Source: Thiopseudomonas denitrificans (GTDB lineage: Bacteria; Pseudomonadota; Gammaproteobacteria; Pseudomonadales; Pseudomonadaceae). From it: a DNA stretch of 64,000 nt. Positions 19,985-58,677 of this stretch are shown in pieces. Numbering within the stretch: position 1 is the first letter of the stretch; the number at the start of each line of letters is the position of its first letter. The notes under the pieces were generated by a model, which did no database searches, was not told the DNA's origin, and saw nothing but the letters and a program-made list of their open reading frames with translations. Both the position numbers and the translations under genes were made by a program. The stretch spans positions 510,813-574,812 of the forward strand of contig NZ_LNJZ01000009.1 in the NCBI RefSeq assembly GCF_002866065.1, in the 5' to 3' direction.

Positions 19985-22900
19985 ATGGAAAACGTCTTTG
20001 ATTTTCGCAACGAGCTGATCAGTGAATACAGCGCCTTTTCACGCAGCTTTGCCAAAATTGCAGCGGCGGATATCAAACAGCTGGTGGAAGCCGAATACGT
20101 CAATGGCCGCTACTGGCCTGATCCCCTAATCCAGATCAACCCCAACTACCAGCGTCAGGGCACTATTCAGGAGCTGGCTGCTCAGGGTGTTGTACATGCC
20201 CAATGTGCTGAAATCTTCCGCACCGGCAAGAATGAGGGGCGCTGTGATGAGCTGAGCCTGTTCAAGCACCAGATGGAAGCGCTAGCCAAAGGCCAATCCA
20301 AACAAAGCTACGTAGTCACCACCGGTACCGGCTCGGGCAAGTCCCTGTCCTTTTTTATCCCCGTGGTCGATGCCATTCTCAAGGGCAAAGACCAGGCCCC
20401 CAAGCCCCGTACTCGCGCCATCGTCATTTATCCGATGAACGCCCTGGCCAACAGCCAGCTGGAAGAACTGGACAAGTTTCTCACTGGCATGAATCCACAG
20501 CCGTTTACGGTTGCCCGTTATACCGGCCAGGAAACACGGGAAGAGCGCGAACGCATTGCCAACAACCCGCCGGATATTCTGCTCACTAACTTCATGATGT
20601 TGGAGCTGATTCTTACCCGTTATGAAGAGGTGGACCGGCGCGTAGTGGAAAACTGCCGTGGCCTTGAGTTTTTGATTCTGGATGAACTGCATACCTACCG
20701 TGGCCGCCAGGGGGCGGACGTGGCCATTCTGGTACGTCGTCTGCGTCAGCGCATGCAGGCCAACGAACTGGTGTGCATCGGTACCTCGGCCACCATGTCC
20801 AGCACCGGCAAACAGGCCGAGCGCAACAAGGTGGTGGCTGGCGTGGCCAGCAAGCTGTTTGGCACCTCAATCAGCGCACACGACATTATTGGCGAAACGC
20901 TGGAGCGCGTAACCAACCCCGACAAAGACGTGTCAGCCATCCGCAACGAACTCAAGGCCGAAGTACTGGCCAACCAGTTCCACCTGCCGGACTACACAGC
21001 CTTTATCAACTCGCCCATGGCCATCTGGGTAGAGCTCAACCTAGGGATCGAGTTTGCCGATGGCGAACCGCCCAAGCGTGCCCAACCCAAAACACTGGCC
21101 GAAGCGGGCGAGCTGCTGGCCAAGGACACCGGCACCTCATTTGAGCAGGCAAAAACTGCCCTACAAAGTTTCCTGTTACAGGCACACGGCATTCACAACC
21201 CCCAAGGCCGTGCGCCTTTTGCCTTCAAGCTGCACCAGTTCATCAGCGGTCCCGGCAAGGTACTGACTACTCTGGAAGCGCCTGGCAGCCGTTACATCAC
21301 TCTGGATGCGCAAAAGTTTGCCCCCGGCCGTCAGCAACAAAACACCTTGCTGTACAGCACGCACTTTTGCCGCGACTGTGGCCAGGAATATCATCCGGTC
21401 TGGCGTGCCGAATCCGGCAGCGTCAGTTTTAGTCCGCGTGAAATCAGTGAAACCGCAGCCGACCCCGAGCAAGAGCAGGACTTTGGCTTTCTTTGCCCCA
21501 GGCATGAGGGTCTCAATTACCACGGGCTGCTTGAAGAGTTGCCCGAACACTGGCTGGATTTCAGCAAGGCAGAACCCAAGCTCAAGTCCAGCTACAAAAA
21601 TGCAGCCCCTCACGAGTACAAAGTGGATGCCGATGGCCAAACCGGACGGGGCGAAGACTTCTGGTTTGTGCCGGGCAAGTTCCGCTTTTGCCTGTCCTGT
21701 AGCCAAACCTACGATGCCCACGGCAAAGACAGCAACCGCCTGGCCAGCCTGTCCGGCGAGGGGCGCTCATCGGCCACAACCGTTTTAACGCTGGCCGCGC
21801 TGCGCCAGCTATTTGCCTTGCAAGACCTGCCCGAACACCTACCCGACCCGCGCAAGCTGCTGGGCTTTAGCGACAACCGCCAGGACGCTGCCTTACAGGC
21901 CGGCCATTTCAATGACTTCCTGTTTCTGCTTAGCTTGCGTGCCGGCCTGATTGGCGCATTGCAGCGTAACCATCAGACACTGGCAGAAGAAGAGCTGGCA
22001 GGCGCAGTCTTCAAGGCGCTTGGTTTTGACCGTACCGACGAAGAAACCCTTGGCGAATACCTGCAAAACCCCAAAGCCATGGGATTGGCTCGCCAGGAAG
22101 CCCAGCGCACCTTGCGCTTTGTACTGGGCTACCGGCTGCTGCGTGATCTGCGTCGCGGCTGGCGGTTCAACAATCCCAACCTGGAACAGCTCGGCATCTT
22201 GCAGGTTGGTTACAACCTGCTTGAAGACTTTTGTAGTGACGAGGTGTTTGCCAACACCAAAAACTCCGACTTGCGCAAACTTTCCCCCGGCAACCGGGCA
22301 CACCTGAGCCGTCTATTATTCGATGAAATGCGCCGCAGCCTGTGTCTGCATAGCATCTATCTCGACCCGGCCGAACAGGACAAAAATCGTAACCGTGCCT
22401 TCAACGAGCTTCAGGAACGCTGGGGTTTTGAAACCGACGAAAAACTGGAAACCTCCCACTATCTGGTGACCGTATCGCGCCCTGAATACCGTGGGCGCAA
22501 CCGCATGAATACCGTATCTGCGGCACCCAGATCACGCATTGTCCGCCTGCTCAAGCGGGCCGACTTCTGGAAAGACACCGCACTGGCCAGCCAGGTACAG
22601 GACTGGAAAGACGACGAGTGGGTTGAACTGATTGAAGACCTGCTTGAGCTGGCCCTTCATTTTGGTTACGTCAGCCGCGAACCGCTGGACAAGGACGTAA
22701 CCGGCTATCGCCTGAGTGCAACCGCTTTGCAGTGGCGCTTACTCGATGATGACGGAAACAACGCCAGCAACCCGTATTTCCGCCAGCTCTATTACAGCCT
22801 GGCCGGTATGTTGTGCCAGCCAGAGCACCCGCTGTTTGTGTTTGAAGCCCAGGAGCATACCGCCCAGGTAGACGGTGGCGACCGGCAGATCCTGGAGCAG

Positions 22901-25264
22901 CGTTTCCGCTACACGCAAAAAGACCGTGACGACTGGCTTAAAGCTGGCAACGATCGAGCTTTGCAACGCCTGCCGGTGATGTTCTGCTCTCCCACCATGG
23001 AGCTGGGCGTGGATATTTCGGCGCTCAACACCGTTTACCTGCGCAACGTACCGCCCACGCCTGCCAACTATGCCCAGCGCAGTGGCCGAGCCGGCCGCTC
23101 CGGCCAGCAGGCGATTGTCATCACCTACTGCGCCTCGCTCAGCCCGCATGATCAATGGTTTTTCCACAACGCCAACGACATGGTGCATGGCGTAGTCAAG
23201 GCTCCCACGCTGGATCTGGGCAACCAGGAGCTGATTAAAAGCCACCTGCACGCCACCTGGCTGGCCTGTGCCGAAACCGAGCTGGAAAGCAGCATTGCCC
23301 AACTACTTGATCTGGAAACAGCTGATAAAGACCTCCTGCCTGCCCTGCAAGCCGTTCTAAACAGTGACGAAACCGGTAACAAGGCCAGACTGGCGGTACA
23401 GGCCGTGGTTGAACAACTGCAAAGCGAGCTGCAAACCAGCCTCTGGTTTAGTCCCTGCTATGTTGAGCAGGTTATCAAGGGTGCGCCCGCAGCCTTTTCT
23501 GCGGCGCTGGACCGCTGGCGCAACCTGTATGACGCCACCCAGAAACAGATGGCAATGGCCGACACCGTACTACGCAGCCATGCCTCCAGCGAGCAAGAGC
23601 GCAAAAATGCCCAGCGCCGCTACAACGATGCCAGCAACCAGCTCAGCGCACTGCTGAAAACCGGCAGCTCGCGCAACTCGGACTTCTACACCTACCGTTA
23701 CCTGGCCAGCCAGGGGTTCTTGCCGGGTTACAACTTCCCGCGCTTGCCGCTGATGGCCTGGATACCCTCTCGCGGCAGCAAGGGAGGCAAAATCGACGAC
23801 GGCAGCATGGTCAGCCGCCCACGTTTTCTGGCGCTCTCCGAGTTTGGCCCGCGCAGCCTTATCTACCATCAGGGGCGCATGTACCGCGTCAACCGTGCCA
23901 AGCTCAATGTCGGCAACAGCGACCATATTTCCGGCGGTAGCACACTGGCCACCATCAGTTCGCGCATTTGCAGCCAGTGCGGCTATGGCCATCTGGGTGA
24001 GCTGCACTCCCAGGAGCTGCTTACTGAGTTGTGCCAGAACTGCGATGCCCTGCTAACCGAAAGTGATTGGGTGCGCGAGTTATATCGCATCGAAACCGTA
24101 GAAACCGAGCCGGTAGAGCGCATCTCAGCCAACGAGGAAGAGCGCCAGCGTCAGGGCTTCGAGTTACAAACCACCTACCGTTTTCTACCCGGCCCCGATG
24201 GCAGCATCCAGAAACAAAAAGCACTGGTATTCAGCGCAGAAGAGCCACTGGCCGAACTGACCTATGCACCGGCTGCCCGTATCTGGCGCATCAACCGTGG
24301 CTGGCGCAGACGCAAAAACAAAGAACAACTGGGCTTTCACATCAACCCGATTACCGGCCTGTGGAGCAAACAAGACGATGCCAGCGATGACAGCGCGGCC
24401 ACCATGGAAGAAAAAATCACCGAAAAAGCCCGCACCCAGCGCATCGTGCCCTTTGTCGAAGACCACCGAAACCTGCTGATCCTGCAACCACGGCAGGAGC
24501 TATCGCTGGAAGCCATGGCCACCGTGCAGGCGGCTCTCAAGCGCGGTATCGAAATGACCTTCCAGATTGAAGAGTCCGAGCTGGTGGCCGAACCGCTGCC
24601 CAGGCTGGATGAACGCCGTGGCCTGCTGTTTTATGAAGCCGCCGAAGGCGGAGCCGGCGTTCTGACCCGCCTGGCCAGCGAGCCGGAAAGTCTGGCCCAG
24701 GTGGCCGCCCGTGCGCTGGAACTGATGCACTTTACCCCGCCCGCCAAAGGCAGCTGGGATTACCAGCAACTGCCACAGCAGGAACAAACCGACGAGCTGG
24801 GCAATGCCAAATGCGAAGCGGGCTGTTATCAGTGCCTGCTGTCGTACTTTAACCAGCCGGATCACGACCATATCAACCGCCGTAACCAGCAGGCGCTGGA
24901 ATTACTGGTGGCACTGGCCAATGCCAACGTCCAGCCGGCACACGGCACAACGCCAGCCAGCATCACAGCAACCGACAAGCACGACACAAACGATCTGCAC
25001 AGCCAGTGGCTACAGGCATTGGCAGCACACCATTTGCCCATACCCGATACCCAGCAGGTTGCCGTAAACCAAGGCGCAGCCACTGCCGCAGGCCAATACA
25101 AGGCCGCCCGCGTACTGGTATTTTTAACCGCCCTGCATGCAGACATTGCCAGCAGCCTGCAAGAGCGTGGCTGGCAGGTGCTGGACTTTAGCCAACCGGC
25201 CCGCTGGCCTGAATCCTTTGCCGCGCTGGCCAGCCATATCCAAAAAAATCAGGACACACCATGA
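19985..25264 (+). CDS. Large helicase-DUF1998 fusion, DISARM DrmA/DrmB-like
   Basis: 1759-residue superfamily 2 helicase. Walker A TTGTGSGKS ends at residue 120, the Walker B box is DELH (233-236), SAT is at 268-270 and motif VI QRSGRAGRSG is at 1031-1040. The C-terminal third is a DUF1998-type cysteine domain: RICSQCGYGHLGE, CQNC, and CEAGCYQC (C1610, C1614, C1617). DISARM systems encode a helicase (DrmA) and a separate DUF1998 protein (DrmB); here both regions are in one chain, also the layout of MrfA/YprA-type helicases. It is the first gene of the defence operon, has GGA 8 bases before the ATG, and overlaps the SNF2 helicase by four bases. A role in anti-phage restriction is inferred from its partners; the exact subtype is open. 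Confidence 0.8.
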   Translation: MENVFDFRNELISEYSAFSRSFAKIAAADIKQLVEAEYVNGRYWPDPLIQINPNYQRQGTIQELAAQGVVHAQCAEIFRTGKNEGRCDELSLFKHQMEALAKGQSKQSYVVTTGTGSGKSLSFFIPVVDAILKGKDQAPKPRTRAIVIYPMNALANSQLEELDKFLTGMNPQPFTVARYTGQETREERERIANNPPDILLTNFMMLELILTRYEEVDRRVVENCRGLEFLILDELHTYRGRQGADVAILVRRLRQRMQANELVCIGTSATMSSTGKQAERNKVVAGVASKLFGTSISAHDIIGETLERVTNPDKDVSAIRNELKAEVLANQFHLPDYTAFINSPMAIWVELNLGIEFADGEPPKRAQPKTLAEAGELLAKDTGTSFEQAKTALQSFLLQAHGIHNPQGRAPFAFKLHQFISGPGKVLTTLEAPGSRYITLDAQKFAPGRQQQNTLLYSTHFCRDCGQEYHPVWRAESGSVSFSPREISETAADPEQEQDFGFLCPRHEGLNYHGLLEELPEHWLDFSKAEPKLKSSYKNAAPHEYKVDADGQTGRGEDFWFVPGKFRFCLSCSQTYDAHGKDSNRLASLSGEGRSSATTVLTLAALRQLFALQDLPEHLPDPRKLLGFSDNRQDAALQAGHFNDFLFLLSLRAGLIGALQRNHQTLAEEELAGAVFKALGFDRTDEETLGEYLQNPKAMGLARQEAQRTLRFVLGYRLLRDLRRGWRFNNPNLEQLGILQVGYNLLEDFCSDEVFANTKNSDLRKLSPGNRAHLSRLLFDEMRRSLCLHSIYLDPAEQDKNRNRAFNELQERWGFETDEKLETSHYLVTVSRPEYRGRNRMNTVSAAPRSRIVRLLKRADFWKDTALASQVQDWKDDEWVELIEDLLELALHFGYVSREPLDKDVTGYRLSATALQWRLLDDDGNNASNPYFRQLYYSLAGMLCQPEHPLFVFEAQEHTAQVDGGDRQILEQRFRYTQKDRDDWLKAGNDRALQRLPVMFCSPTMELGVDISALNTVYLRNVPPTPANYAQRSGRAGRSGQQAIVITYCASLSPHDQWFFHNANDMVHGVVKAPTLDLGNQELIKSHLHATWLACAETELESSIAQLLDLETADKDLLPALQAVLNSDETGNKARLAVQAVVEQLQSELQTSLWFSPCYVEQVIKGAPAAFSAALDRWRNLYDATQKQMAMADTVLRSHASSEQERKNAQRRYNDASNQLSALLKTGSSRNSDFYTYRYLASQGFLPGYNFPRLPLMAWIPSRGSKGGKIDDGSMVSRPRFLALSEFGPRSLIYHQGRMYRVNRAKLNVGNSDHISGGSTLATISSRICSQCGYGHLGELHSQELLTELCQNCDALLTESDWVRELYRIETVETEPVERISANEEERQRQGFELQTTYRFLPGPDGSIQKQKALVFSAEEPLAELTYAPAARIWRINRGWRRRKNKEQLGFHINPITGLWSKQDDASDDSAATMEEKITEKARTQRIVPFVEDHRNLLILQPRQELSLEAMATVQAALKRGIEMTFQIEESELVAEPLPRLDERRGLLFYEAAEGGAGVLTRLASEPESLAQVAARALELMHFTPPAKGSWDYQQLPQQEQTDELGNAKCEAGCYQCLLSYFNQPDHDHINRRNQQALELLVALANANVQPAHGTTPASITATDKHDTNDLHSQWLQALAAHHLPIPDTQQVAVNQGAATAAGQYKAARVLVFLTALHADIASSLQERGWQVLDFSQPARWPESFAALASHIQKNQDTP

Positions 25265-28035
25265 ATCAGTTAGAGCACAACTACGCCCCCGGCAATCTGG
25301 TCCACGCCCGTGGCCGTGAGTGGGTGGTGCAAAACGAATCCACTGCCAACTGGCTCAAACTACGCCCGCTGGGTGGTACCGACGACGACATCGTTAGCCT
25401 GATTCCCGATCTGGAAATGGAGCCGGTGCGCTCCGCCACCTTTCCCTGGCCCGATCCACAGTATCCGGGCAACCACTCTGCTGCTTTATTGTTGCGCGAT
25501 GCTCTGCGCTTGAATCTACGCACTGGTGCCGGCCCGTTCCGCTCCTTTGGCAATATCGCTGTCGAACCCCGCGCCTACCAATTGGTGCCGCTATTGATGG
25601 CTCTACGGCTGGATACCGTGCGCCTGCTGATTGCCGATGACGTGGGTATTGGTAAAACCATCGAGGCCGGTCTTATCGTGCGCGAACTGATGGATCGTGG
25701 CGAAATCAGCAAACTGGCCGTGCTCTGTCCGCCACACCTGGTCGAACAGTGGCAAAGCGAGCTGGAAAACCGCTTCAACCTGCAAAGCGTTGCGCTGACT
25801 TCATCCAGCGCCAGCCGTGTCGAACGGGAAATTCCCCATGGCGTGCGCCTGATGGACCATTACCCGATCATCGTGGTCAGCCTGGACTACATCAAAAGCG
25901 AGCGTCACCGCGAACACTTTCTGGCCAACGCCCCCGAATGCATCATCGTTGACGAAGCCCACACCTGCTCAACCTCCGGGCAGGGCAAACAACTGCGCTT
26001 TGAGCTGTTACAGCGACTGGCCGCTGATCAGCAACGCCACATTCTCATGCTGACCGCCACCCCCCACAGCGGCAACGAAGAAGCCTTTTACAACCTGATT
26101 TCGCTGCTCGACCCCAGGTTTGCCCAACTGCAACACAAAACCTCGGCCAATGACCCGCTGCGTCAGGAACTGGCTCGCCACTTCGTCCAGCGCCGCCGTC
26201 AGGACATCATCGAGTGGCAGGCCGAAACCAGCGACGGCACCGGCTTTCCCCGCCGTATGAAAACCGAAATCACCTACAGCCTCACCGGCCAGTGGGGTGC
26301 ATTTTTCGATGCCGTGCAGGATTACTGCCGCGAGCTGGCCCACGAAATCGAACAACAGGAAGAAGGCCGCTCGCGCCTGATCTGGTACGCCACCCTGGCC
26401 CTGTTGCGCTGCGTCGCATCTTCGCCTGCCGCTGCCGTGCGCGCCCTCAGCAATCGTCTGGATACCCTCGAAAACGATAGCGACCTGCTGCACGATGACC
26501 GCCTGCACGACGGCGAAATGGATGACCTCACCGCCTCCGATATCGAGCCGCCCGCCCAGCTGGACAATCAGCCATTGCAAAACCTGATTGAAACCGCCAA
26601 CAAACTCAGCGGCCCCAAAGGCGATCCCAAGCTGGCCGCCCTGATTCGCCACCTGCAGGATCAGCTGAACGATGGCTATCAGCCGGTAGTGTTTTGTCGT
26701 TATGTGGCCACCGCCCACTATGTGGCCGAGCACCTGCAAAAGGCCTTCCCCGATACCCGTATCGAAGCCGTAACCGGCGAGCAAACCCCGGAAGAACGCC
26801 GCTTGCGGGTTGAATCCATGGACGAGCACGAACGCCGCATTCTGGTCGCCACCGACTGCCTGTCCGAAGGCATCAACCTGCAACACCTATTTACTGCCGT
26901 GTTGCACTATGATTTGGCCTGGAACCCGACCCGTCACGAACAACGTGAAGGACGCGTTGACCGCTTTGGTCAGCAAGCCAGCGAAGTGCGCTGCACCATG
27001 CTCTACGGCCAGGACAACCCGGTGGACGGTTTTATCCTCAACGTTATCCTGCGCAAAGGCGAAGCCATCCAGAAAGAGCTGGGCGTACTGGTACCCATGC
27101 CTGAAGACGACACCCGCATCAATCAGGCGCTGGTACGCGCCGCCCTGATGCGCCGCAGCGGCGGTAGCGGGCCACAAACCATGGACCTGTTTTCCGACAT
27201 TCAGGACAGCCTGCAACCCGTCGAAGCCCAATGGCAGGATGCACTGGAAAAAGCCCGCAAAAACCGCACCGTATTTGCCCAGCGCCGTATCCATCCGCAC
27301 GAAGTGCTGCCCGAATGGGAAAAGCAGCAAGCCGCCCTGGGCACCCAGGCTGATGTGGAGCGTTTTATCCGCACCGCCACCGCCCGCCTGAACGCACCGC
27401 TAGAGCCAGCCCGCCACAACCGGTATCGCTTTCTGCCACAACAACTGCCGGAAGCCCTGCGCCTGCGCCTGAACGACGAAGGCATCAACAAGGAACAGCT
27501 AATCGACTTTAACGAGCTGCACCGCAGCCACCCGCTGGTTAGCGTACTGGCCGATCACCTGCTGGAAGAAAGCCTGCAAGAACAAAACCCCATAGCCGCC
27601 CGCTGCGCAGCCACCGAAACCGATGCCGTCGAAGTGGTGACCACCATTTACCTGCTGCGCTTGCGCCACAATCTGGAATACGTCCGCCGCCGCCAGCCCT
27701 ACCAGCTAATGGCGGAAGAAACCCTCGCCGTGGCCGTACAGGGGCGCAGCAACCCGCAGTGGCTGACCGGCCCCGAAGTGAACGAGCTGCTGGAATGTGT
27801 GCCCACCGGCAACCTGGACAAAGCCCTGATCAGCCGCGAAGTTGGTCAGGCGCTGGAGTTTTTGCAAACTCAGCAGCAAAAACTGGAACAGCTGGCCAGC
27901 GAACGCGCCGAGCAACTACTGGCCGACCACAAGCGTGTGCGCGAAGCCGCCCGCGATGTTGGCCAATACAGTGTCAGTCCGTGTTTGCCGGTGGATGTAA
28001 TGGGTGTTTATGTACTGCTGCCGGATGCGCTCTGA
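25261..28035 (+). CDS. SNF2/RapA-type helicase, DISARM DrmD-like
   Basis: 924-residue SWI2/SNF2 ATPase: Walker A DVGIGKT at residues 127-133, DEAH at 231-234, TATPHS at 265-270, and C-terminal helicase motifs VATDCLSEGINLQ and REGRVDRFGQ. The N-terminus (MNQLEHNYAPGNLVHARGREWVV) is a small beta domain as in RapA and DrmD. DrmD is the accessory helicase of class 1 DISARM, and pairing with an Eco57I-type methylase directly downstream supports that reading. Its start overlaps the preceding stop (ATGA) and its stop overlaps the next small ORF (TGATG), so the three reading frames are translationally coupled. Confidence 0.82.
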   Translation: MNQLEHNYAPGNLVHARGREWVVQNESTANWLKLRPLGGTDDDIVSLIPDLEMEPVRSATFPWPDPQYPGNHSAALLLRDALRLNLRTGAGPFRSFGNIAVEPRAYQLVPLLMALRLDTVRLLIADDVGIGKTIEAGLIVRELMDRGEISKLAVLCPPHLVEQWQSELENRFNLQSVALTSSSASRVEREIPHGVRLMDHYPIIVVSLDYIKSERHREHFLANAPECIIVDEAHTCSTSGQGKQLRFELLQRLAADQQRHILMLTATPHSGNEEAFYNLISLLDPRFAQLQHKTSANDPLRQELARHFVQRRRQDIIEWQAETSDGTGFPRRMKTEITYSLTGQWGAFFDAVQDYCRELAHEIEQQEEGRSRLIWYATLALLRCVASSPAAAVRALSNRLDTLENDSDLLHDDRLHDGEMDDLTASDIEPPAQLDNQPLQNLIETANKLSGPKGDPKLAALIRHLQDQLNDGYQPVVFCRYVATAHYVAEHLQKAFPDTRIEAVTGEQTPEERRLRVESMDEHERRILVATDCLSEGINLQHLFTAVLHYDLAWNPTRHEQREGRVDRFGQQASEVRCTMLYGQDNPVDGFILNVILRKGEAIQKELGVLVPMPEDDTRINQALVRAALMRRSGGSGPQTMDLFSDIQDSLQPVEAQWQDALEKARKNRTVFAQRRIHPHEVLPEWEKQQAALGTQADVERFIRTATARLNAPLEPARHNRYRFLPQQLPEALRLRLNDEGINKEQLIDFNELHRSHPLVSVLADHLLEESLQEQNPIAARCAATETDAVEVVTTIYLLRLRHNLEYVRRRQPYQLMAEETLAVAVQGRSNPQWLTGPEVNELLECVPTGNLDKALISREVGQALEFLQTQQQKLEQLASERAEQLLADHKRVREAARDVGQYSVSPCLPVDVMGVYVLLPDAL

Positions 28036-28133
28036 TGACCCGTTTTGAACTGAAACGTCCTCCACATTTGAAAAAGCTAAAACGTACAAAAAAACCCTGC
28101 CGTCACTGGGAAGTCATCGGGGAGCACGAGTAA
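28035..28133 (+). CDS. Small basic ORF between SNF2 helicase and methylase
   Basis: A 32-codon frame whose ATG shares one base with the helicase stop (TGATG) and which ends 5 bases before the methylase start. The predicted peptide is strongly basic (about ten Lys/Arg, e.g. RPPHLKKLKRTKKPC) and ends HWEVIGEHE. The methylase ribosome-binding site GGGGAG lies inside its end. It could be a real coupled peptide or just a leader that carries ribosomes to the methylase. I do not recognise a family. Confidence 0.4.
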   Translation: MTRFELKRPPHLKKLKRTKKPCRHWEVIGEHE

Positions 28134-28138
28134 CCACC

Positions 28139-31100
28139 ATGAAACGCATCAACAAAGCCCGTAAAAGCACCTTCAACCTGCCTAGCCTCACCCTGGAAGG
28201 CGCACTCTTTTTGCCCGACCTGCTGGAAAAGGCCGCCCGTGGCGAAGCCATCCTGCAAAGTGCCGCCGACTACCAAACGCCCAAGGGGCTGCAACTGCGT
28301 GACGAATACAGCCGTGCCTTCCAGATTGCCAATGCCCAGTGGAAAGGCTTTACCAGCCACCAGCAACGCCAGGACGTGGACCCGTACGAGCTGACCTGCC
28401 AGTTTGTCCGCGAACTGCTCAAACACGCCTTCGGCTACCACACCATCCAGTACAGCAAACACATCGAACTGGACGAGCGCCGCTACCCCGTCAACCTGCA
28501 AGCCGGCAGCCTGCCCATTGTGGTTGCGCCCTTTACTGCCACGCTGGACGAAAGCCTGCCCCTGTTTGCCGTGGAAGGCAGCGGCAGCCGCAAAAAATCC
28601 GCCTTCCAGCTGGCGCAAGAGCTGCTTAACGCCAGCCCGGACCACCACTGGGCGCTGGTCACCAACGGCAGACAAATCCGTCTGCTGCACAACGCCGCCA
28701 GCCTGACCCGCCCCAGCTTTCTGGAAATCGACCTACAAGACATCCTGCAAGGCCAGCGTTTCAGCGAATTTGCCAGCGCCTGGCGCTTGCTGCACGCCAG
28801 CCGTGCCCCCAACTCCGGCCTGCCGCTGGCCGAAGGCGACACAGACCCCCAGACCATCTGGGCGCAATGGCGACAGCAAGGTCAGGAACAGGGCACCCGC
28901 GTGCGTGACGGCCTGCGCCACGGCGTCGAACAAGCCCTGATCGCCTTGGGGCAGGGTTTTCTGGAACACCCCGACAACCAAGCCCTGCGCACTGCACTGG
29001 ACGACGGTAGCCTGAGCCGTGATCAATACTTCCAGCAACTGCTGCGCCTGGTTTACCGGCTGATTTTCGTCTTCACCCTGGAAGAGCGCGGCCTGCTGCA
29101 CCCCCAGGATGACAGCGCCGAAGCCCTGAACGCCCGTCAGGCCTATGCCGAAGGCTATGCCCTGGCTCGCCTGCGCGAGCTGTGCCTCAAGCGCCGCGCC
29201 CACAACCGTTTTGACGACCACTGGCAAGCCATCCGCATCGTCTTTCGTGGCCTGCAACAGGGCCAGCCACTGCTGGCGCTGCCCGCGCTGGGCGGCCTGT
29301 TTGCCGCCGACCAGTGCCCGCAACTGGATCAGGCCAAACTCAGCAACCAGTATTTCCTCACCGTGATCCGTCACCTGCGCTGGGCGCAAATCGTCCAGGG
29401 CAAAACCACCACCTACAGCCCCGTGGACTACCGCAACATGGGGCCGGAAGAGCTGGGCAGCGTTTATGAAAGCCTGCTGGAGCTGGTGCCCAGCATCAGC
29501 CTGAGCGCGCGCCGCTTCGGTTTTGTCGGCCTCACCGAAGAAGGCAGTACCGCCGGCAACGCCCGCAAACTCACCGGCAGCTACTACACCCCCGACAGCC
29601 TGGTGCAAGAGCTGATCAAAAGCGCACTGGAACCGGTGATTGCCCAGCGCCTGCAAGACAACCCGGAAAATCCCGCCGCTGCGCTGCTGTCCATCCGCGT
29701 CATCGACCCCGCTTGCGGCAGCGGCCACTTTTTGCTGGCTGCCGCCCGCCGTCTGGCCGAACAACTCGCCGAGCTGCGCAGCCAGGCCAGCGGCCACGAC
29801 GGTGCAGTCAGCCCGCAGGATTACCGCCACGCCCTGCGCCAAGTCGTCACCCACTGCATTTTCGGGGTGGACCGTAACCCCATGGCCATCGAATTGGCAC
29901 GCATGGCGCTCTGGCTGGAAGGCTTTGAAGAAGGCCGCCCGCTGGGCTTCCTCAACCACCACCTGCAAGTGGGCGATGCCCTGCTGGGGCTAACCGACCT
30001 GAGCGTGCTGGAACAGGGCATCAGCAAGGATGCCTACAAAGCCCTCAGCGGCGACGACAAAGAAGTGTGCAAACAACTGGCCGCCAGCAACCGTCAGGCG
30101 CTCAAACAGCTGGAGACCATGCAGAAAACGCCCCAGTTCAGCCTGCCACTGGCGCAGGAAGACAGCCTCAGCAGCCTGCAACGCATCGAGTCCCTGCCAC
30201 AAAACAGCCTGCAAGAAATTGCCGCCAAGGAAAGCGCCTGGCGCGAGTTTTTAGAGCAAACCCGCACCAGCCCGCTACGCAACGCCGCCGACATGCTGGT
30301 GGCTGCCTATCTGCTGCCCAAGCTGCCACACACCCAGCAGCAGATTCCCACCACCGCCAGCCTGCTGCTGGAGCTGATCAGCGATGCCGACAGCCACAAC
30401 GCCCAGCATCTTGCTCAGCGGCAAGCCGCGCTGGATGCCTGCCAGCACGCCAGCGTATTTCACTGGCCGCTGGCCTTTCCGCAGGTATTTGCCCAGGGTG
30501 GTTTTGACTGTGTGCTGGGTAATCCGCCGTGGGAGCGCATCAAGCTGCAAGAAGAAGAGTTCTTTGCCAGCCGCAGCGCCGACATTGCCCAGGCCAAAAA
30601 CAAGGCCGAACGCAGCCAGCGCATCCAGTGGCTCAGTGAGGGCATGCTGGCCCGCCACCTTTACCCCGAGCTGGCCCACACAGCCGACGCCGATGAAGCC
30701 GAAAAACGGCTGTATCAGGAATTTGTCAGCGCCCGCCGCACCGCCGAAGCCGCCAGCATTTTTGTACATGTGAAGGAAAACGAAGGCGGGCGCTACCCGC
30801 TGACCGGTGTGGGGGATGTAAATACCTATGCGCTGTTTGCTGAAACCATTTTGCAAATCACCAAAGCAGAACAGGGCTTTGCCGGCTTTATCGTGCCTAC
30901 CGGTATTGCCACCGACGCATCCACAAAAGCCTATTTCGCCAACCTCACTCAATCGAGCAGACTAGTAAGTCTTTATGACTTTGATAACTCCGACCGCATA
31001 TTTCCCGCAGTCGCAACATTGGTTAGATTCTCTCTTGTAACTATAGGTGAGTCCAAAACAGCCACGTTCGCCTTCCTCCTTAAGAAAGTTGAAGATATTA

Positions 31101-32233
31101 ATGACAACAGGAGGCGATTTACTCTATCCCCAGAAGACTTCCGCCTCATCAACCCCAACACACTCACCTGCCCGGTATTCCGCAGTAAACGCGATGCGGA
31201 GCTGACTAAAAAGCTCTACCGTTCTGCACCCGTGCTGATGCGCGATGCCGTGATCGAAGGAGAAGGGAAACAGGCCAAGGTTTTGAAGGCCCCGCAAAAT
31301 CCATGGGGAATTTCGTTTATGGCAATGTTCCACATGTCGAACGATAGCCACCTCTTTCTAACGAGCGAAGACATACACAAAGAAGAAAAAGTGGAAGTCG
31401 GCAATGCGAAACTTGACGGGTACCTTCCTCTCTACGAAGCAAAAATGATGACCCTATATGATCATCGATTTGGTAGTTATCCTTACGGGGCGACTGATGA
31501 TACACGAGCACTTCCCAGACTCTCAATTGAGCAATATTCAGACCCTTTCTTTGAAGTGAACCCGAGATTTTATGTAAACTCCAGTGATGTGAAAAAACGA
31601 CTTGGGGCAAGCGCAGATAATTGGTTCTTGTGCTTTCGCTCAATGAGCAATCATTCCAACGTTAGAAGATTTATATCCAGCGTATTGCCATTTTCCGCTA
31701 TAGGGAATAGCTTGATTCTTGTGAGGCCAACCCCTCCCCTTTCAGGCAGAAAGATGGCATGCCTTATCGCAAATCTTGGATCAATAATAATTGATGTAAT
31801 TGCACGATGGAAAGTGAGCGGAACAAACCTGAACTTATTTTTTGTCCAACAATTCCCTGTCTTGCCACCTGACTTCTATTCAGAAATGGATGAGGAGTTC
31901 ATTGTAAGCAGAGTTGTTGAACTCACATATACCACTCATAGCTTAAAAAAGTTTGCGGAAGACTTGGGTTTTCAAGGAGCTCCATTTTCCTGGAGCCCAT
32001 CGCGCAGGCTTCAACTTCGCGCAGAGCTAGACGCCTATTACGCTCGACTCTATGGCCTTACTCGCGAAGATCTCTGTTATATCCTTGATCCTTCTGACGT
32101 AGCCGGCGATGACTATCCCTCCGAAACATTCCGTGTACTTAAGGAGAGGGAGGTTAGCGAGTTTGGAGAATACCGTACACGAAAGCTAGTGCTGGAGGCG
32201 TGGGATAAATTAAAACTTGGGGAGCTGGCATGA
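28139..32233 (+). CDS. Large N6-adenine methyltransferase, DrmMI/PglX-like
   Basis: 1364-residue Eco57I-type methylase. SAM motif I is DPACGSGHF (523-531) and catalytic motif IV is NPPW (795-798). An N-terminal domain of about 450 residues precedes the catalytic core, and the C-terminal 400 residues form the target-recognition region, including the LPLYEAKMMTLYDHRFGSY stretch typical of PglX and type IIG enzymes. No endonuclease domain was seen. In DISARM and BREX such enzymes mark host DNA. Base composition changes sharply inside the gene: GC-rich to about 30,900, AT-rich for most of the rest, so the specificity part looks exchanged. The stop overlaps the next gene (ATGA). Confidence 0.85.
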   Translation: MKRINKARKSTFNLPSLTLEGALFLPDLLEKAARGEAILQSAADYQTPKGLQLRDEYSRAFQIANAQWKGFTSHQQRQDVDPYELTCQFVRELLKHAFGYHTIQYSKHIELDERRYPVNLQAGSLPIVVAPFTATLDESLPLFAVEGSGSRKKSAFQLAQELLNASPDHHWALVTNGRQIRLLHNAASLTRPSFLEIDLQDILQGQRFSEFASAWRLLHASRAPNSGLPLAEGDTDPQTIWAQWRQQGQEQGTRVRDGLRHGVEQALIALGQGFLEHPDNQALRTALDDGSLSRDQYFQQLLRLVYRLIFVFTLEERGLLHPQDDSAEALNARQAYAEGYALARLRELCLKRRAHNRFDDHWQAIRIVFRGLQQGQPLLALPALGGLFAADQCPQLDQAKLSNQYFLTVIRHLRWAQIVQGKTTTYSPVDYRNMGPEELGSVYESLLELVPSISLSARRFGFVGLTEEGSTAGNARKLTGSYYTPDSLVQELIKSALEPVIAQRLQDNPENPAAALLSIRVIDPACGSGHFLLAAARRLAEQLAELRSQASGHDGAVSPQDYRHALRQVVTHCIFGVDRNPMAIELARMALWLEGFEEGRPLGFLNHHLQVGDALLGLTDLSVLEQGISKDAYKALSGDDKEVCKQLAASNRQALKQLETMQKTPQFSLPLAQEDSLSSLQRIESLPQNSLQEIAAKESAWREFLEQTRTSPLRNAADMLVAAYLLPKLPHTQQQIPTTASLLLELISDADSHNAQHLAQRQAALDACQHASVFHWPLAFPQVFAQGGFDCVLGNPPWERIKLQEEEFFASRSADIAQAKNKAERSQRIQWLSEGMLARHLYPELAHTADADEAEKRLYQEFVSARRTAEAASIFVHVKENEGGRYPLTGVGDVNTYALFAETILQITKAEQGFAGFIVPTGIATDASTKAYFANLTQSSRLVSLYDFDNSDRIFPAVATLVRFSLVTIGESKTATFAFLLKKVEDINDNRRRFTLSPEDFRLINPNTLTCPVFRSKRDAELTKKLYRSAPVLMRDAVIEGEGKQAKVLKAPQNPWGISFMAMFHMSNDSHLFLTSEDIHKEEKVEVGNAKLDGYLPLYEAKMMTLYDHRFGSYPYGATDDTRALPRLSIEQYSDPFFEVNPRFYVNSSDVKKRLGASADNWFLCFRSMSNHSNVRRFISSVLPFSAIGNSLILVRPTPPLSGRKMACLIANLGSIIIDVIARWKVSGTNLNLFFVQQFPVLPPDFYSEMDEEFIVSRVVELTYTTHSLKKFAEDLGFQGAPFSWSPSRRLQLRAELDAYYARLYGLTREDLCYILDPSDVAGDDYPSETFRVLKEREVSEFGEYRTRKLVLEAWDKLKLGELA

Positions 32234-33246
32234 AGTCAATAGAAATTGGTGAAACGGTTGTTGAGAATGTCATCCTACATCAGATTGGCAATCGCCTACG
32301 AGAAGAGCCGCTGATTCTGGCAGTTCAATGCTTCGACATCACAGAAAGCATCGCAAACCTGATACTTGGTGGCTATCTACGAGGCATCGTCAGCGATAAA
32401 AATCAGTACATGCTTACCCATGAAAGCGATATGGTGCTGAATGATGTGGCTCACCATGTATCTTCTTTCTTTTCTAGAAAAATCTCTTTCATAGAGCTTT
32501 CTAGGAACTTGGCTGCACATCTTTACGCTTCGGCGCACCATCCCAACATCGCATCAGGTGATTTATTTGTCATTTTGTTTGACAAGCTGAAACTAGATGG
32601 GAAGTACAAATCTGCCATCGGGGTTTACAAGGCGGAATCAAAACAGCAATACATTTCTACCCGTGCCAATGGCGAAAACAGGCAACTCGAAGTATCAAGC
32701 GGCATCAACCCTGACTTAATTGACAAAGGCGTTCTCATTGTTGAGGACTCTGAAATTGTTTATGCCATCGATCGCCTGAGCAGCCGCACAAAATACTGGA
32801 TTGAGGATTTTCTGAAAGCGAAGCAGGTTCCCAATGAGAACACAAAAACAGCCGTTGCTGCCGGGTTGATAGAGAAGGTTCGAGACAACATCGAAAGCCC
32901 CGTGGCGAGGCAGGACTTCTGCCGAGAAGTCATTGCCTTGTGTGAAGACCGAGATGAAGTACCTAGCGATGAGATCAGGACGGTGTCAGAGAAATATGTT
33001 TCCCCCGAGATCTGGGGCACAGAGCTGGCTAGAATCACCGAACGCAAGGGGCTGGTGGATACCGGCGAAATCAATGTGCCGACCAGAAATCTTCAGACCA
33101 AGCTGAAAAAGATGTTTAACCGCATCAACCTGGGCCAGGACATTGGATTGATACTGCCGGACAACCTTTCGTTCAATAATGCAAACTTCACGGATGACGA
33201 AGAAACCATCCAAATAAGCATAACGCTGGAGAAGAAAAATGGGTGA
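32230..33246 (+). CDS. Nucleoid-associated protein of the YejK/NdpA family
   Basis: 338 residues, close to the 335 of E. coli YejK. The opening VENVILHQIGNRLREEPLIL, the HESDMVLNDVAHHVSSFF region, LAAHLYASAHHPNIASGDLFVILF, then ALGV-type AIGVYKAESKQQYI and LIDKGVLIVEDSE, match the 37-kDa nucleoid protein family. It is not the housekeeping yejK: it is AT-rich, sits in the defence operon, and overlaps the methylase by four bases and the next gene by eight. Its role here is unknown; binding host or phage DNA is a reasonable guess. Confidence 0.72.
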   Translation: MKSIEIGETVVENVILHQIGNRLREEPLILAVQCFDITESIANLILGGYLRGIVSDKNQYMLTHESDMVLNDVAHHVSSFFSRKISFIELSRNLAAHLYASAHHPNIASGDLFVILFDKLKLDGKYKSAIGVYKAESKQQYISTRANGENRQLEVSSGINPDLIDKGVLIVEDSEIVYAIDRLSSRTKYWIEDFLKAKQVPNENTKTAVAAGLIEKVRDNIESPVARQDFCREVIALCEDRDEVPSDEIRTVSEKYVSPEIWGTELARITERKGLVDTGEINVPTRNLQTKLKKMFNRINLGQDIGLILPDNLSFNNANFTDDEETIQISITLEKKNG

Positions 33247-34156
33247 GTTATCGAAGACATCTGGTGAGAATGGCGAGAAGATTACAGAAGAACTCCTGAA
33301 ACTGATTGGGTGGAGCAATCTCCTGAAGGGTGTTAGCATTCCATGTAATAAAGCAGCACACGATAGGCAAACGCATGGCAATGATTTTGTGTTCGTCTAT
33401 GATAACCCGCTTCATGACAGCCGGACTGATGTTGTTTATATCTCCTCAAAAAATGCCAAAAATGGCTACCCAAAAGGAGACCAGAGTGTCAGGACGATGT
33501 TCAAAAATCACTTATCAGAGCTTGATGAGATAGTTTCCTGCTCAAAAATAAGCTCTCAAATCAATCAAGCGATACAAGCTGTTGGTGGGCGCAAACAAAA
33601 GAAACATATAGGCCTACTCGTATGGATGCATGGAGACAGGGCAACACTGGATAAAGACATCAAACCAGCGCTAAGCAATATCCAGTTGAGCTTATCCTCA
33701 AATTGCCCCTTGTATCTTGTGGATATGGCGCGTGCCTCATTTATCAAAGAGGCGATTAGCCACTTCAAAAGTAGCACACAAGGGCAGCAATATCATTTCT
33801 ATTACCCCAAGCTTGGAAATGTCATAGCAAACGCAGATGAACGATACGGCGATTTGCTGCCAATCGAGCTTTTGGCATCAGACCTTATTCCATTTCGGTT
33901 TATGCTGGGGGAAAAGCCATCTCTTTGCCTGTATGCCAAACAAGCATTCTCGGAAGAATCCTTGAAAAAGCTTTGCAGCCTAGCCTTCGACTTTGCGGAT
34001 GGCTGGGTACAGGATATTTTCATAGGTCTGGAAAGCTACCACCCGGCAGACGACAAGCAAGTTAAAGATGCCGTTCTGATGGCCTTTCGGGAAAGGAAAG
34101 CAAGCATCAAGGTGTTTTGCTACAAAGAATCCGTTCTCGATCTTTTGGAGTACTGA
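33239..34156 (+). CDS. GapS4a-like PD-(D/E)XK nuclease
   Basis: 305 residues beginning MGELSKTSGENGEKITEELL, the N-terminus I associate with GapS4a, the nuclease subunit of the two-protein anti-phage system GAPS4. A PD-(D/E)XK-like core can be traced: E13 in the first helix, D49 in HGNDFVFVY, and the strand VVYISSK ending in K71. The rest has no motif I recognise. It is followed after one base by the second gene of the pair, as GAPS4 requires. Recognition is from memory of the family, not a search. Confidence 0.62.
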   Translation: MGELSKTSGENGEKITEELLKLIGWSNLLKGVSIPCNKAAHDRQTHGNDFVFVYDNPLHDSRTDVVYISSKNAKNGYPKGDQSVRTMFKNHLSELDEIVSCSKISSQINQAIQAVGGRKQKKHIGLLVWMHGDRATLDKDIKPALSNIQLSLSSNCPLYLVDMARASFIKEAISHFKSSTQGQQYHFYYPKLGNVIANADERYGDLLPIELLASDLIPFRFMLGEKPSLCLYAKQAFSEESLKKLCSLAFDFADGWVQDIFIGLESYHPADDKQVKDAVLMAFRERKASIKVFCYKESVLDLLEY

Positions 34157-34157
34157 T

Positions 34158-35306
34158 ATGGATAATCCGGCTAAGCAATTTGATTATGAACGGGCCATGC
34201 TCTGGGGAGATCGTTTAAGAGTACTACTCAATAGCGATCACATCAGTAATGGCGAAATTACTGAAACACTGAGGGAAAAGGGCATATTTATTGGTAGCGG
34301 TGAAAAGTCCGAAACCGTACCACTGTTGAGCGCCTGCCTTTTAACTCCAAATGAGTTCACGAACCTTGTCGAAAAATCATTCGTTCGTGAATCTGGAAAG
34401 AAATACTCATCTAGCAAGTTTAAACTGACAGCCTCAGATTCCGATTGGAAAACGGAAATTCAAAATAATTTTGAATCGGTGATAGAGGGTATCAAGCTAG
34501 GGGATGATCGGGAGTTTGCTTCTGAACCAGCTCTCTCGGTTGATCCCGACGGAAACGTAAGAATCACATACTCCGTACGAGTGCTCGACTTCAGCAAGGA
34601 CTGGATAAACCGAGAAATCACTTACCCAGGCGAAGTTCTTCTTAAGCAAGCCGATAATGACTTGGAAATTGAAGTCAACAAATCCAGAACATCACAAGAT
34701 ACCAATAAGCTCAATGATGCTATCACCGGCGCTATCGGAAAATTCTATAAATCAAAAGGCATTACCACGGATGAAAAGCCAGAGTCAATTTTGTTTGATG
34801 ATTTCACGAACAATGAGCGGATCAGATTTTTTCTGCAATTGACATCTGTCAATACAGCCGAGTTCTCCTTCAAAGAGATTGGAAACTTCGAAATTATTCG
34901 AGATCAAGAGGCAGGGGCGCTACCAAAAGAGGAGAGAATTGAGTGGATGGATGGGCATGTCAACAAGGTACAAATAAAAGGAAGTGATCTTGGAAAAATC
35001 TTTCTTCTCAAGGAGGAAAGCTATTATCAGTACTACTATCTGATAAAAATGACGGCTACCTATGCCTTCAAATTCGGTGCAAGCGCTGGCGACTGCGGCA
35101 TTGAATTTGCTTTTTCTGGAAAAACGTCAAGAGACGATAATTACTCTGGGACGGTCTTTGACTTCAGCATTGAGCGACTCCCGCGCGTGGAGGAAGGAAG
35201 CAAGATTCGGGTCAGAAAGGATATTATCCAAAGAACACAAGCAGCAATAGATGCGGCTTTCAAGCATGTTAAGTCACCTGCTGTTACCGACTTGGAAGGA
35301 GAGTAG
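34158..35306 (+). CDS. GapS4b-like partner protein
   Basis: 382 residues with no classical enzymatic motif. The N-terminus (residues 1-70, with LRVLLNSDHISNGEITETLREKGIFIG) is helical; the middle is rich in beta strands and charged residues. Its start, one base after the GapS4a-like stop and 8 bases after a GGAG, indicates a tight pair, and that context is the main reason for calling it GapS4b-like. Together the two would form a nuclease complex acting on invading DNA. AT-rich like its neighbours. Confidence 0.55.
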   Translation: MDNPAKQFDYERAMLWGDRLRVLLNSDHISNGEITETLREKGIFIGSGEKSETVPLLSACLLTPNEFTNLVEKSFVRESGKKYSSSKFKLTASDSDWKTEIQNNFESVIEGIKLGDDREFASEPALSVDPDGNVRITYSVRVLDFSKDWINREITYPGEVLLKQADNDLEIEVNKSRTSQDTNKLNDAITGAIGKFYKSKGITTDEKPESILFDDFTNNERIRFFLQLTSVNTAEFSFKEIGNFEIIRDQEAGALPKEERIEWMDGHVNKVQIKGSDLGKIFLLKEESYYQYYYLIKMTATYAFKFGASAGDCGIEFAFSGKTSRDDNYSGTVFDFSIERLPRVEEGSKIRVRKDIIQRTQAAIDAAFKHVKSPAVTDLEGE

Positions 35307-35312
35307 TGCCGT

Positions 35313-35609
35313 ATGTTGACTCATCTTAAGCTGGAGAACTTCAAGATCTGGCGCAGCACGGGGCCTGTGCGACTTGCTCCGATTACTCTGCTGCTGGGCA
35401 CTAATTCATCGGGAAAGTCCAGCCTGATCCAAAGCCTGCTGCTTATCCGACAGACCGGAACGAGCAACGCGCCAAGCTGGTACGCGCCGGTTTTGTGCAA
35501 AGCATCGAAGAACACTGGAGCCGTCGCCCGCTGGAGTGGAACCGGGTGGACTGGGAGAAGAATCAGGGCATATTGGAGTAACAATGAGCATCCCCTTCAC
35601 CGATCGTGA
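35313..35609 (+). pseudogene. Truncated AAA ATPase (DUF3696/OLD-like), N-terminus only
   Basis: The frame opens MLTHLKLENFKIWRSTG and has a perfect ABC/SMC-type Walker A, LLLGTNSSGKSSLIQ, at about residues 27-41, as in DUF3696-type overcoming-lysogeny-like ATPases. After LLLIRQT (ending 35456) homology stops and the frame continues as nonsense to 35609. The normal protein has several hundred residues, including signature and Walker B motifs absent here. A GGAGAG precedes the ATG. It is a gene remnant created by an internal deletion. Confidence 0.75.
35453..35581 (+). pseudogene. C-terminal scrap of a second lost gene
   Basis: In another frame than the ATPase remnant, about 42 well-formed codons (DRNEQRAKLVRAGF to WEKNQGILE) run to a TAA at 35579-35581. 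They look like the real end of a protein and supply the GGAG ribosome-binding site of the HEPN-like gene 3 bases on. No start belongs to them, so they are the tail of a gene whose front was deleted. I cannot name the family. Confidence 0.55.
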
Positions 35610-36021
35610 ACTAACCCGCGCCTGGCGCCAGCTGCGGCAAACAGCCTTGCCGCTGGCAAATCAAGGCCGCAACAATGCGCACCGGCTGCTGTTGTTTTAC
35701 GCGGTGGAGTGTGGGCTAAAAGCTGTCTGGCTGAAACGTAAAAATCAGACGCTTTTTACCAAAGAAGACATCCAGCAAACGGGGCACGACCTGTCCAGAA
35801 CGCTGGATCAGCTCAAGGCTGGAAAAGGGTTAAGCTTGCCCCAGCACGTTCAGCTGCCGGCAGTGAAAGATACGCACAATCAGACAATTCCACGTAATGG
35901 CGGCGCAGATATTCTGCACCAGGCCTGGCGTTATGGCGGAATGTGCCAGTTGCCAAACGATACCGCCTGCGAACAACAGTTGGAGCAGGTTATGGAATGG
36001 ATCAACGGAGAGCTGCAATGA
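35584..36021 (+). CDS. HEPN-like small protein upstream of KGGVGR ATPase
   Basis: 145 residues, mostly helical. The segment AHRLLLFYAVECGLKAVWLKR followed by a GHDL motif near residue 68 resembles the HEPN fold, whose members are often RNases in conflict systems; the canonical RxxxxH catalytic motif is not evident, so it may be an inactive or structural member. The start at 35584 is preceded by GGAG; an in-frame ATG at 35536 falls inside the gene scrap. Its stop overlaps the ATPase start (ATGA), indicating one functional unit. Confidence 0.55.
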   Translation: MSIPFTDRELTRAWRQLRQTALPLANQGRNNAHRLLLFYAVECGLKAVWLKRKNQTLFTKEDIQQTGHDLSRTLDQLKAGKGLSLPQHVQLPAVKDTHNQTIPRNGGADILHQAWRYGGMCQLPNDTACEQQLEQVMEWINGELQ

Positions 36022-38786: not shown

Positions 38787-38801
38787 CCAGGAGCTTTGAT
38801 T

Positions 38802-39745: not shown

Positions 39746-39822
<77 letters not shown>

Positions 39823-58411: not shown

Positions 58412-58498
58412 GCCCAGGTGGTGGAATTGGTAGACACGCTAGTTTCAGGTACTAGTGGCTTAACGGCTGTGGAAGTTCGAGTCTTCTCCTGGGCACCA
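58412..58498 (+). tRNA. tRNA-Leu (CAG), copy 1
   Basis: 87-base class II tRNA with long variable arm: acceptor GCCCAGG/CCTGGGC, anticodon arm CTAGTTTCAGGTACTAG with CAG, T-loop GTTCGAGTC, encoded CCA. Confidence 0.96.
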
Positions 58499-58553
58499 AA
58501 TCATGAATGACAAGAGTGAAATTACAATCTGGCCTGATTATACGCTTCATGAC

Positions 58554-58581
58554 TTGCATTGTCGCAAATTATAGCTATAAT
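58554..58581 (+). promoter_or_regulatory. Promoter of second tRNA-Leu
   Basis: TTGCAT (58554-58559), 16-base spacer and perfect TATAAT (58576-58581), 9 bases before the second tRNA. The second copy can thus be expressed on its own. Confidence 0.75.
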
Positions 58582-58590
58582 CGTTGCCCT

Positions 58591-58677
58591 GCCCAGGTGG
58601 TGGAATTGGTAGACACGCTAGTTTCAGGTACTAGTGGCTTAACGGCTGTGGAAGTTCGAGTCTTCTCCTGGGCACCA
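58591..58677 (+). tRNA. tRNA-Leu (CAG), copy 2
   Basis: Identical over all 87 bases to the copy at 58412-58498 as far as I can read; a tandem duplication of the gene with unrelated spacer sequence. Confidence 0.96.

Follow-up and report, generated by a model that had tools for sequence, protein, structure and literature searches.

ARMADA, whose name stands for 'disARM-related', was defined in the preprint of Bell et al. 2025 (PMC12458937). Type I of the system, abundant in Pseudomonadota, is described there as a YprA helicase with a fused DUF1998 part, a BrxHII-like SNF2 helicase and a PglX-like methylase, in that order, and a predicted active Vsr domain at the C-terminus of the YprA protein is given as the usual state of the type, not as a definition of the clade. 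A BrxA-like insert, a beta-barrel zinc module, a MarR-like domain and a coiled-coil HTH are further features of the type. Here we describe an operon on a 64,000-nucleotide stretch of Thiopseudomonas denitrificans (contig NZ_LNJZ01000009.1, positions 510,813 to 574,812), called the window below. The operon begins at 19985 and reaches 39566, with all its genes on the + strand. By its sequence the core is ARMADA type I, arranged ArmC-ArmA-ArmB, and not DISARM, and it probably represents a branch in which cutting has moved from the helicase-fused Vsr domain to a separate HNH protein encoded at the end of the operon.

ArmC (P0001; 19985..25264, +; 1759 amino acids, aa) is a YprA-family SF2 helicase with fused MZB/DUF1998 and a C-terminal Vsr-like domain; Pfam identified DEAD, Helicase_C and MZB/DUF1998 domains in it, and a Walker A motif TTGTGSGKS and a DELH box were read by eye. 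ArmA (P0002; 25261..28035, +; 924 aa) is a SNF2/RapA-like (BrxHII-like) helicase with the Pfam domains SNF2-rel and Helicase_C, and ArmB (P0003; 28139..32233, +; 1364 aa) a PglX/DrmMI-like N6-adenine methylase with Eco57I/N6_Mtase, in which the motifs VIDPACGSGHF and NPPW are visible by eye. Judged in the same way, the helicase and methylase motifs of the three proteins appear intact. The initial annotation had placed three open reading frames (ORFs) at exactly 19985-25264, 25261-28035 and 28139-32233, all +, and the Pfam domains agree with its naming of them. Its statement that the frames overlap holds for the first pair, which share 4 bp, and not for the second and third genes, which lie 103 bp apart; the stop of the third gene, ArmB, is overlapped by the start of the next one, NA37. 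It had also ended the module at 32233, where in fact NA37, GapS4a, GapS4b, a KGGVGR ATPase and the HNH gene follow on the same strand to 39566. The protein searches covered the eight proteins P0001-P0008 of the region 19985-39566, with smaller ORFs outside the scan.

The module had originally been interpreted as DISARM-like, with DrmA and DrmB fused and no DrmC. As a statement of kinship 'DISARM-like' is right, because ARMADA stands for 'disARM-related', but as a statement of membership it fails. Relatives of the SNF2 protein and the methylase do occur in DISARM class 1: P0002 matches DrmD models with 293 and 326 bits, and P0003 the DrmMI model with 256 bits. DISARM differs in having separate DrmA and DrmB and a phospholipase-D-like (PLD) protein, DrmC. 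The best DrmA model gives P0001 only 55 bits, against 1054 bits for a real DrmA from a DISARM locus (L179) used as a positive control, and no BLAST match between P0001 and that DrmA was obtained at E 1e-5. The DrmD score of 326 bits is below the NCBI cut-off of 610. In the phylogenetic trees P0002 is placed within the ARMADA-I ArmA clade (SH-aLRT 100), apart from four DrmD proteins and the Escherichia coli ArmA, and P0003 within the ARMADA-I ArmB clade (SH-aLRT 100), apart from three methylases encoded beside DrmD, long branches limiting the deeper joins in both trees. A search of 143 genomes with a DrmA model gave no match, also in its control genomes, and these DISARM references were obtained through a DrmD search, the four DrmD proteins being above the NCBI cut-off and the three methylases being taken as DrmMI by their position beside DrmD. 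The SNF2 protein and the methylase are thus outside DISARM by tree and the helicase by scores. Neither a DrmA-type helicase, nor a separate DrmB (the MZB part lies in P0001), nor DrmC was found among the eight proteins, and neither DrmD nor DrmMI is indicated by the trees. The absence of a PLD protein had been noted correctly, as Pfam detected no PLD domain in P0001-P0008; two PLD-helicase protein models match P0002, and these only across its helicase part.

The fusion regarded earlier as an oddity is the usual state of the YprA family, in which the DUF1998 part is typically fused; according to the preprint, DISARM alone among the branches consistently encodes the two as individual genes. Nor does 'minimal' describe the operon, because it continues to an HNH nuclease and a GapS4-bearing cargo. 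With this exact gene order already described as ARMADA I (PMC12458937), and with the scores and trees given above, a DISARM variant in which drmA and drmB have fused and drmC has been lost is hardly credible, in spite of the class 1 relatives of two of its proteins.

The composition and the order ArmC, ArmA, ArmB agree with type I as described in the preprint, a known system of the same composition. The order was found in 79 of 91 ArmC rows (window included) and no other order was seen; in the remaining 12 the stretch ends too early, five being without ArmA and seven without ArmB in the available DNA. In the ArmC trees P0001 is placed beside L012, from an A. soli plasmid, and groups with 90 relatives apart from the E. 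coli ArmC and DruE, the outgroup branches being long. Druantia resembles the window in that DruE1 is the best PADLOC match of P0001 (293 bits), yet no DruH or DruA-D partner is present for P0001-P0008 among the 25 best PADLOC matches per protein. Among the best matches of the same proteins Dpd is represented only by the helicase models DpdE, DpdF and DpdJ, and no 7-deazaguanine insertion genes (DpdA etc.) are included. Both Druantia and Dpd were rejected because these matches of the eight proteins revealed no partner genes. The match of P0002 to the DpdE model PDLC02853 extends over the full length (701 bits), with no other Dpd-specific gene seen near, and ARMADA-I ArmA proteins may have been the basis of this model.

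ARMADA II of E. coli ATCC 8739 has homologues of all three core proteins, with 25-36% identity to the window proteins over parts only, and differs in its order ArmA-ArmB-ArmC-ArmD, where ArmD is a RelE-UvrD protein. A partial ARMADA type II is present elsewhere in the same genome (G000:C1:12220-26444, L170/L171), with an ArmC 38% and an ArmD 51% identical to those of E. coli and an ArmA-like helicase of 1176 aa (58% over the N-terminal 685 aa) in an odd order, and within this genome E. coli ArmB matches nothing but the type I ArmB of the window. In a genome from the same class as the window, L182:3-12441 includes a SNF2 helicase, a methylase, two other genes and finally, truncated where the stretch ends, a DruE/ARMADA-like YprA helicase, a gene order reverse to that of ARMADA I.

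In the alignments the Vsr-like domain at the C-terminus of ArmC (24957..25261, +, approximate bounds from alignments A1 and A3) has lost its catalytic residues. The Vsr catalytic motif D[FY]xY...DGPxH is present in six of the ten rows of alignment A1 and lost in four, including the window, where the RPDFxY...FIDGPHH of the relatives is replaced by a degenerate and shorter stretch (A1 and A3). The motif is lost also in L086, and L037 was scored as Vsr-lost though aspartates remain, its DGPHH reading DDTHH. The preprint describes a predicted active Vsr in this position and the residues of the window are lost, and the operon is therefore filed as a variant of ARMADA I.

The last gene of the operon, conserved as the distal gene of this ARMADA-I branch, encodes an HNH endonuclease of 256 aa (P0008; 38796..39566, +; PF13391). 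Its residues H169, N187, D196 and D200 align with H224, N241, D250 and D254 of VcaM4I, for which catalytic residues have been assigned (PMC7897488). The catalytic residues are invariant in an alignment of 18 rows, and the motif was found in 53 of 57 systems, three of the misses being ORFs cut by the locus edge and the fourth, L062, having YD for FD. P0008 is the sole match of its HNH profile in the genome at E 1e-4, and in eight of 59 systems the HNH start touches or falls inside the ArmB end. The AlphaFold model of P0008 (pLDDT 92) gave 6yex as the best Foldseek match (E 4.5e-9); the two matches under E 0.001 are both VcaM4I chains, and TagI comes next (E 0.009). Whole-chain TM-scores against VcaM4I and TagI are low (0.3-0.4), so the structural match is confined to the HNH part.

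P0008 thus shares the HNH domain with VcaM4I (EVE-HNH, 6YEX) and TagI (SRA-HNH) by sequence and fold, and with VcaM4I also the catalytic residues, and differs from them in its N-terminal region, which has no clear match. These closest solved HNH proteins are both modification-dependent, and the N-terminal half of P0008 is a separate region without an assigned function. Both points favour another role for the protein, that of an accessory modification-dependent (type IV-like) cutter directed against phages with altered bases, while the core would restrict by helicase action alone. Speaking against such a role, Pfam found neither an EVE nor an SRA domain in P0008, and over the whole chain its structure resembles VcaM4I poorly except in the HNH part (TM about 0.4). 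The evidence from the relatives bears on the same question.

The sample of relatives consisted of the best 80 of at least 587 confirmed relatives from a scan of genome contigs, together with plasmid and genome-search loci. The ArmC C-terminus was read in each row where present and HNH genes were located by profile inside the loci. For short flanks, HNH was searched for in the source genomes or records of 58 loci or handles, giving some HNH match in 25 of 27 of one set and in 13 of 31 of the other. A match counted as part of the operon only when it lay on the same contig and strand and downstream, or, in a circular plasmid record, past the start of the record; the latter was the case with L014, where one stop is counted inside the match and the motif is present in a 235-aa ORF. 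A number of the accepted HNH genes, those of L024, L034 and L040 among them, are truncated where the contig or locus ends. The 91 ArmC rows were reduced to 79 scored ones by dropping L057 (C-terminus missing), L008 (Vsr readable as lost, no HNH call) and ten rows without a usable HNH call (L006, L022, L023, L028, L031, L043, L049, L050, L089 and L096), of which L006 and L050 represent one contig, judged by its length. The trees were built without L001 (the window itself), the partial L009 and L011, L048, whose contig is as long as that of L005, and L002-L004.

Among the 79 scored rows (window included), 51 have lost the Vsr motif and carry HNH, 19 have Vsr without HNH, nine have both, and none lacks both. 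The 19 calls of HNH absence are based on no match in the whole genome in 15 cases, none in the plasmid record in two (L015 and L017), and matches only elsewhere in two (L045 and L058). Seven further plasmid records were taken from the top matches listed: L208 is without ArmA and ArmB, and the other six keep the trio. Five of the six have lost Vsr and carry HNH; all six are alphaproteobacterial and thus repeat one side of the tree. A strict rule of either Vsr or HNH was rejected, as in a beta-proteobacterial group with intact Vsr the HNH gene was found beyond the 10-kb flank. As a separate observation, the ARMADA-I locus L017 (Deinococcus radiodurans MP1) keeps the Vsr motif intact, its record is without HNH, and its methylase is broken up, an IS630-type transposase lying between the pieces.

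Several results weigh against a transfer of cutting from Vsr to HNH. The nine relatives with both nucleases keep an apparently active Vsr, and HNH could therefore be an added function rather than a replacement. The two HNH-absent calls L045 and L058 have weaker matches elsewhere in the genome, and the contig of L058 ends soon after ArmC, which makes that call weak. Loci with neither nuclease may exist, the three found being damaged: L210 (Kozakia) has lost Vsr, and an IS21 follows its ArmB closely in a stretch where HNH was not found; L022 has a dead Vsr, is interrupted behind ArmB by an insertion and retains 51 residues of HNH; and L023 has a dead Vsr and an ArmB interrupted by a vapBC-like pair, with HNH not found over the approximately 8 kb up to the contig end, the HNH match of its genome being on another contig. 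The Foldseek comparison of the window's Vsr-like domain with Vsr (1cw0) was not significant (E 0.8), and the homology of the domain thus rests on sequence alignment. Furthermore, in the available text of the preprint anti-phage activity is shown for type II only (PMC12458937). Finally, unordered parsimony required only three Vsr changes and one HNH change, so the association rests on few independent events, and the ArmC outgroup root is unstable with long outgroup branches, so that HNH may have been gained once or lost once and a gain is not proved.

The low number of changes and the unstable root would also agree with shared ancestry, one lineage having gained HNH and, without connection, lost Vsr. 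On the other hand, if Vsr is irrecoverable, the loss count read from the tree is four (L014, L042, L037 and a large clade), all in an HNH-carrying background, while the HNH-less part of the tree has no Vsr losses over 10.9 branch-length units, and we consider unconnected changes unlikely. The accessory role of P0008 gains some strength from the nine relatives with Vsr beside HNH. It is opposed by the almost exclusive occurrence of Vsr decay where HNH is present, and by the HNH gene being far more constant than any cargo gene and co-diverging with ArmC (Mantel r 0.833, the maximum of 2000 permutations being 0.125; 57 systems). Because related genomes raise r without functional linkage, this correlation shows shared descent, not function. 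Altogether the accessory role seems rather improbable, and the transfer of cutting to HNH is preferred.

In the mechanism proposed on this basis, ArmB would methylate adenines at a target sequence and thereby mark self DNA, and ArmA and ArmC, two DNA-translocating helicases, would load on unmarked incoming DNA. The HNH protein would be the cutter of the window system, taking over the cleavage of unmarked DNA from the dead Vsr domain, which may stay as a docking platform. Target specificity would change through the swap of a segment of ArmB, and the interval between ArmB and HNH would act as a bay where modules, here NA37-GapS4 and the KGGVGR ATPase, come and go. Phage protection by ARMADA II is direct (non-abortive) and depends on its helicase and methylase motifs (PMC12458937); by analogy with this homologous system, phage protection, direct action and the need for the motifs may be expected also in the window.

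The census of the bay included 59 systems (L023 was dropped from 60). The interval between ArmB and HNH ranged from 0 to 10.7 kb, being at most 300 bp in 12 systems and larger in 47. Representative bay proteins were scanned against Pfam (20 proteins), NCBIfam (10) and PADLOC (10). The matches included DRT1a (1410 bits), a DrmD-type helicase (896), Mokosh MkoA (783), HEC-03B (452), MkoB (231), SoFic (141) and HEC-05/GmrSD (128), in addition to Schlafen, HEPN-RES and HD domains, and six of the 20 proteins scanned with Pfam had no match there. By BLAST-cluster membership, 16 of the 59 bays have a gene from a cluster with a scanned member that matches a named defence model, the window being included via GapS4; among the non-empty bays this link was established for these 16 only. 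We infer that the cargo genes of the bay are defensive.

A recurrent bay protein, 'c0', is a SMC-like coiled-coil ATPase with a weak PADLOC match to LmuB (50 bits), present in at least 24 of the 59 bays (L019, L088, L033, L053, L062 and L094 among them) and also in L211 and L212. In most c0 bays it is located directly after ArmB. ArmB is at least 1442 aa long in all 24 systems with c0 and in five of the 31 without it (55 systems with ArmB length), and c0 is perhaps a true extra subunit.

In the window the bay consists of NA37 (32230..33246, +; nucleoid-associated protein family, 338 aa; PF04245, 65.8 bits, cut-off 24.6), the adjacent GapS4a (33239..34156, +; NF047933, 305 bits, cut-off 270) and GapS4b (34158..35306, +; NF047934, 354 bits, cut-off 300), both thus above the NCBI cut-offs, a 5' stub of an AAA_15/DUF3696-type ATPase gene (35313..35606, +), and a KGGVGR-motif ATPase of 947 aa with a Sll1717-type P-loop region (35943..38786, +; NF047398, 155 bits, cut-off 90). 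The last protein scores 74.5 bits against NF047389, just under the cut-off of 75. The stub resembles the gene located directly after ArmB in A. soli (L012): 143 bp match L012:27131-27273 at 75%, the first 15 residues are identical, and it is apparently a fossil of an earlier cargo. From NA37 through GapS4a to GapS4b (32230-35306) the starts and stops overlap or adjoin. This arrangement, starting from the ArmB stop, and the shared strand could mean that in this operon the products of NA37-GapS4 and of the KGGVGR gene belong to ARMADA as integral subunits and are not independent cargo, which is nevertheless very unlikely, as the other bays examined hold different genes or none, and the G+C content is low from approximately 30.5 to 35.3 kb.

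Twelve operon pairs were compared at the DNA level. L081 and L086 are 92.7% identical along 10.3 kb that run from ArmC to within ArmB, after which approximately 1.2 kb of ArmB is unmatched; beyond this gap they match at 88% over 373 bp at the ArmB 3' end, have unrelated bays, and match again at 87% in HNH. A similar gap in ArmB, followed by approximately 380 bp of conserved 3' end (88%), was found in L083/L084, where the ArmB of L084 is split, and in L068/L078, which share part of the bay. In L019/L021 the downstream part of ArmB differs together with the bay, and similarity resumes at HNH (89%). L038/L040 match through ArmB, and the other pairs were more divergent or less clear. The swapped segment is probably the recognition domain of ArmB.

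The DNA similarity of the window to its relatives ends likewise inside ArmB, at 30837 in comparison to L012 and at 30581 in comparison to L013, and resumes in HNH and, for L012 only, at the ATPase stub. These ends are near the start of a drop in G+C content, from approximately 0.62 at 30.0 kb to 0.42-0.49 over 31.0-35.5 kb. The 3' part of ArmB and the NA37-GapS4 genes would thus have come from a source of lower G+C content, on top of an earlier ATPase cargo like that of A. soli. Toxin-antitoxin genes were seen in the same operon type in two relatives: in L013 (A. caldus) a Phd/VapC pair is located between ArmA and ArmB (25734-26368), and the vapBC-like pair of L023, identified by eye, is at 21281-22076.

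The right border of the insertion is a tRNA-Met gene (39746..39822, -), as shown by comparison with a genome of the same genus (G326), in which this tRNA-Met adjoins the counterparts of 11.4-16.0 kb of the window. A segment of approximately 23.6 kb including the operon has therefore been either inserted in the window or lost in G326. The segment includes also an apparent iron ABC transporter, named by eye from the sequence, at 16.1-19.7 kb. No direct repeat was found within either end of the island, the ends having been searched separately and not against each other. Further along the window, two tandem tRNA-Leu (CAG) genes are present at 58412-58677.

Protection by ARMADA II is known, but the DNA-cutting enzyme is not shown in the available text of the preprint, and the HNH branch offers a direct test of the cutter, as one of its nucleases looks dead and the other intact. 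The nearly empty bays of the 12 systems give a compact ArmC-ArmA-ArmB-HNH operon, the genes between ArmB and HNH are good candidates for new defence genes, and the near-identical operon pairs whose ArmB segments differ point to the part of ArmB expected to set the methylation target. For the branch as a whole, large and distributed in Pseudomonadota, Myxococcota, Verrucomicrobiota and Campylobacterota, we see an even chance that a stand-alone HNH took over cutting from the fused Vsr, and that a loading bay between ArmB and HNH, with conserved ends, a swappable ArmB segment and exchangeable modules (DRT, Mokosh, SoFic, HEC-03, GmrSD and GapS4 among those seen), forms a platform for new combinations of immunity.

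The terminal HNH gene, the decayed Vsr and the variable bay were not found in the main text of the preprint (PMC12458937), where HNH occurs once, in the title of a reference. The HNH association of ARMADA I is not described in the available texts of PMC12458937, PMC12839542, PMC13192584 and PMC7251935, and neither a follow-up on type I nor a paper on GapS4 was found in the literature searched, in which subscription journals are sparsely covered. The closest parallel is in the DUF499 BREX-related (Hma) systems, which have a helicase-fused nuclease and in which, where this is missing, nearby nucleases including HNH are read as compensatory (PMC12839542). The idea of compensatory nucleases in general therefore has precedent in that paper, in the available text of which ARMADA and YprA are absent. 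The Hma systems differ from the operon described here in their core, which consists of a DUF499 ATPase, a SNF2 helicase and a methylase. From ARMADA I as described in the preprint, the window differs, in addition to its decayed Vsr, in having an HNH gene and an exchangeable bay after ArmB.

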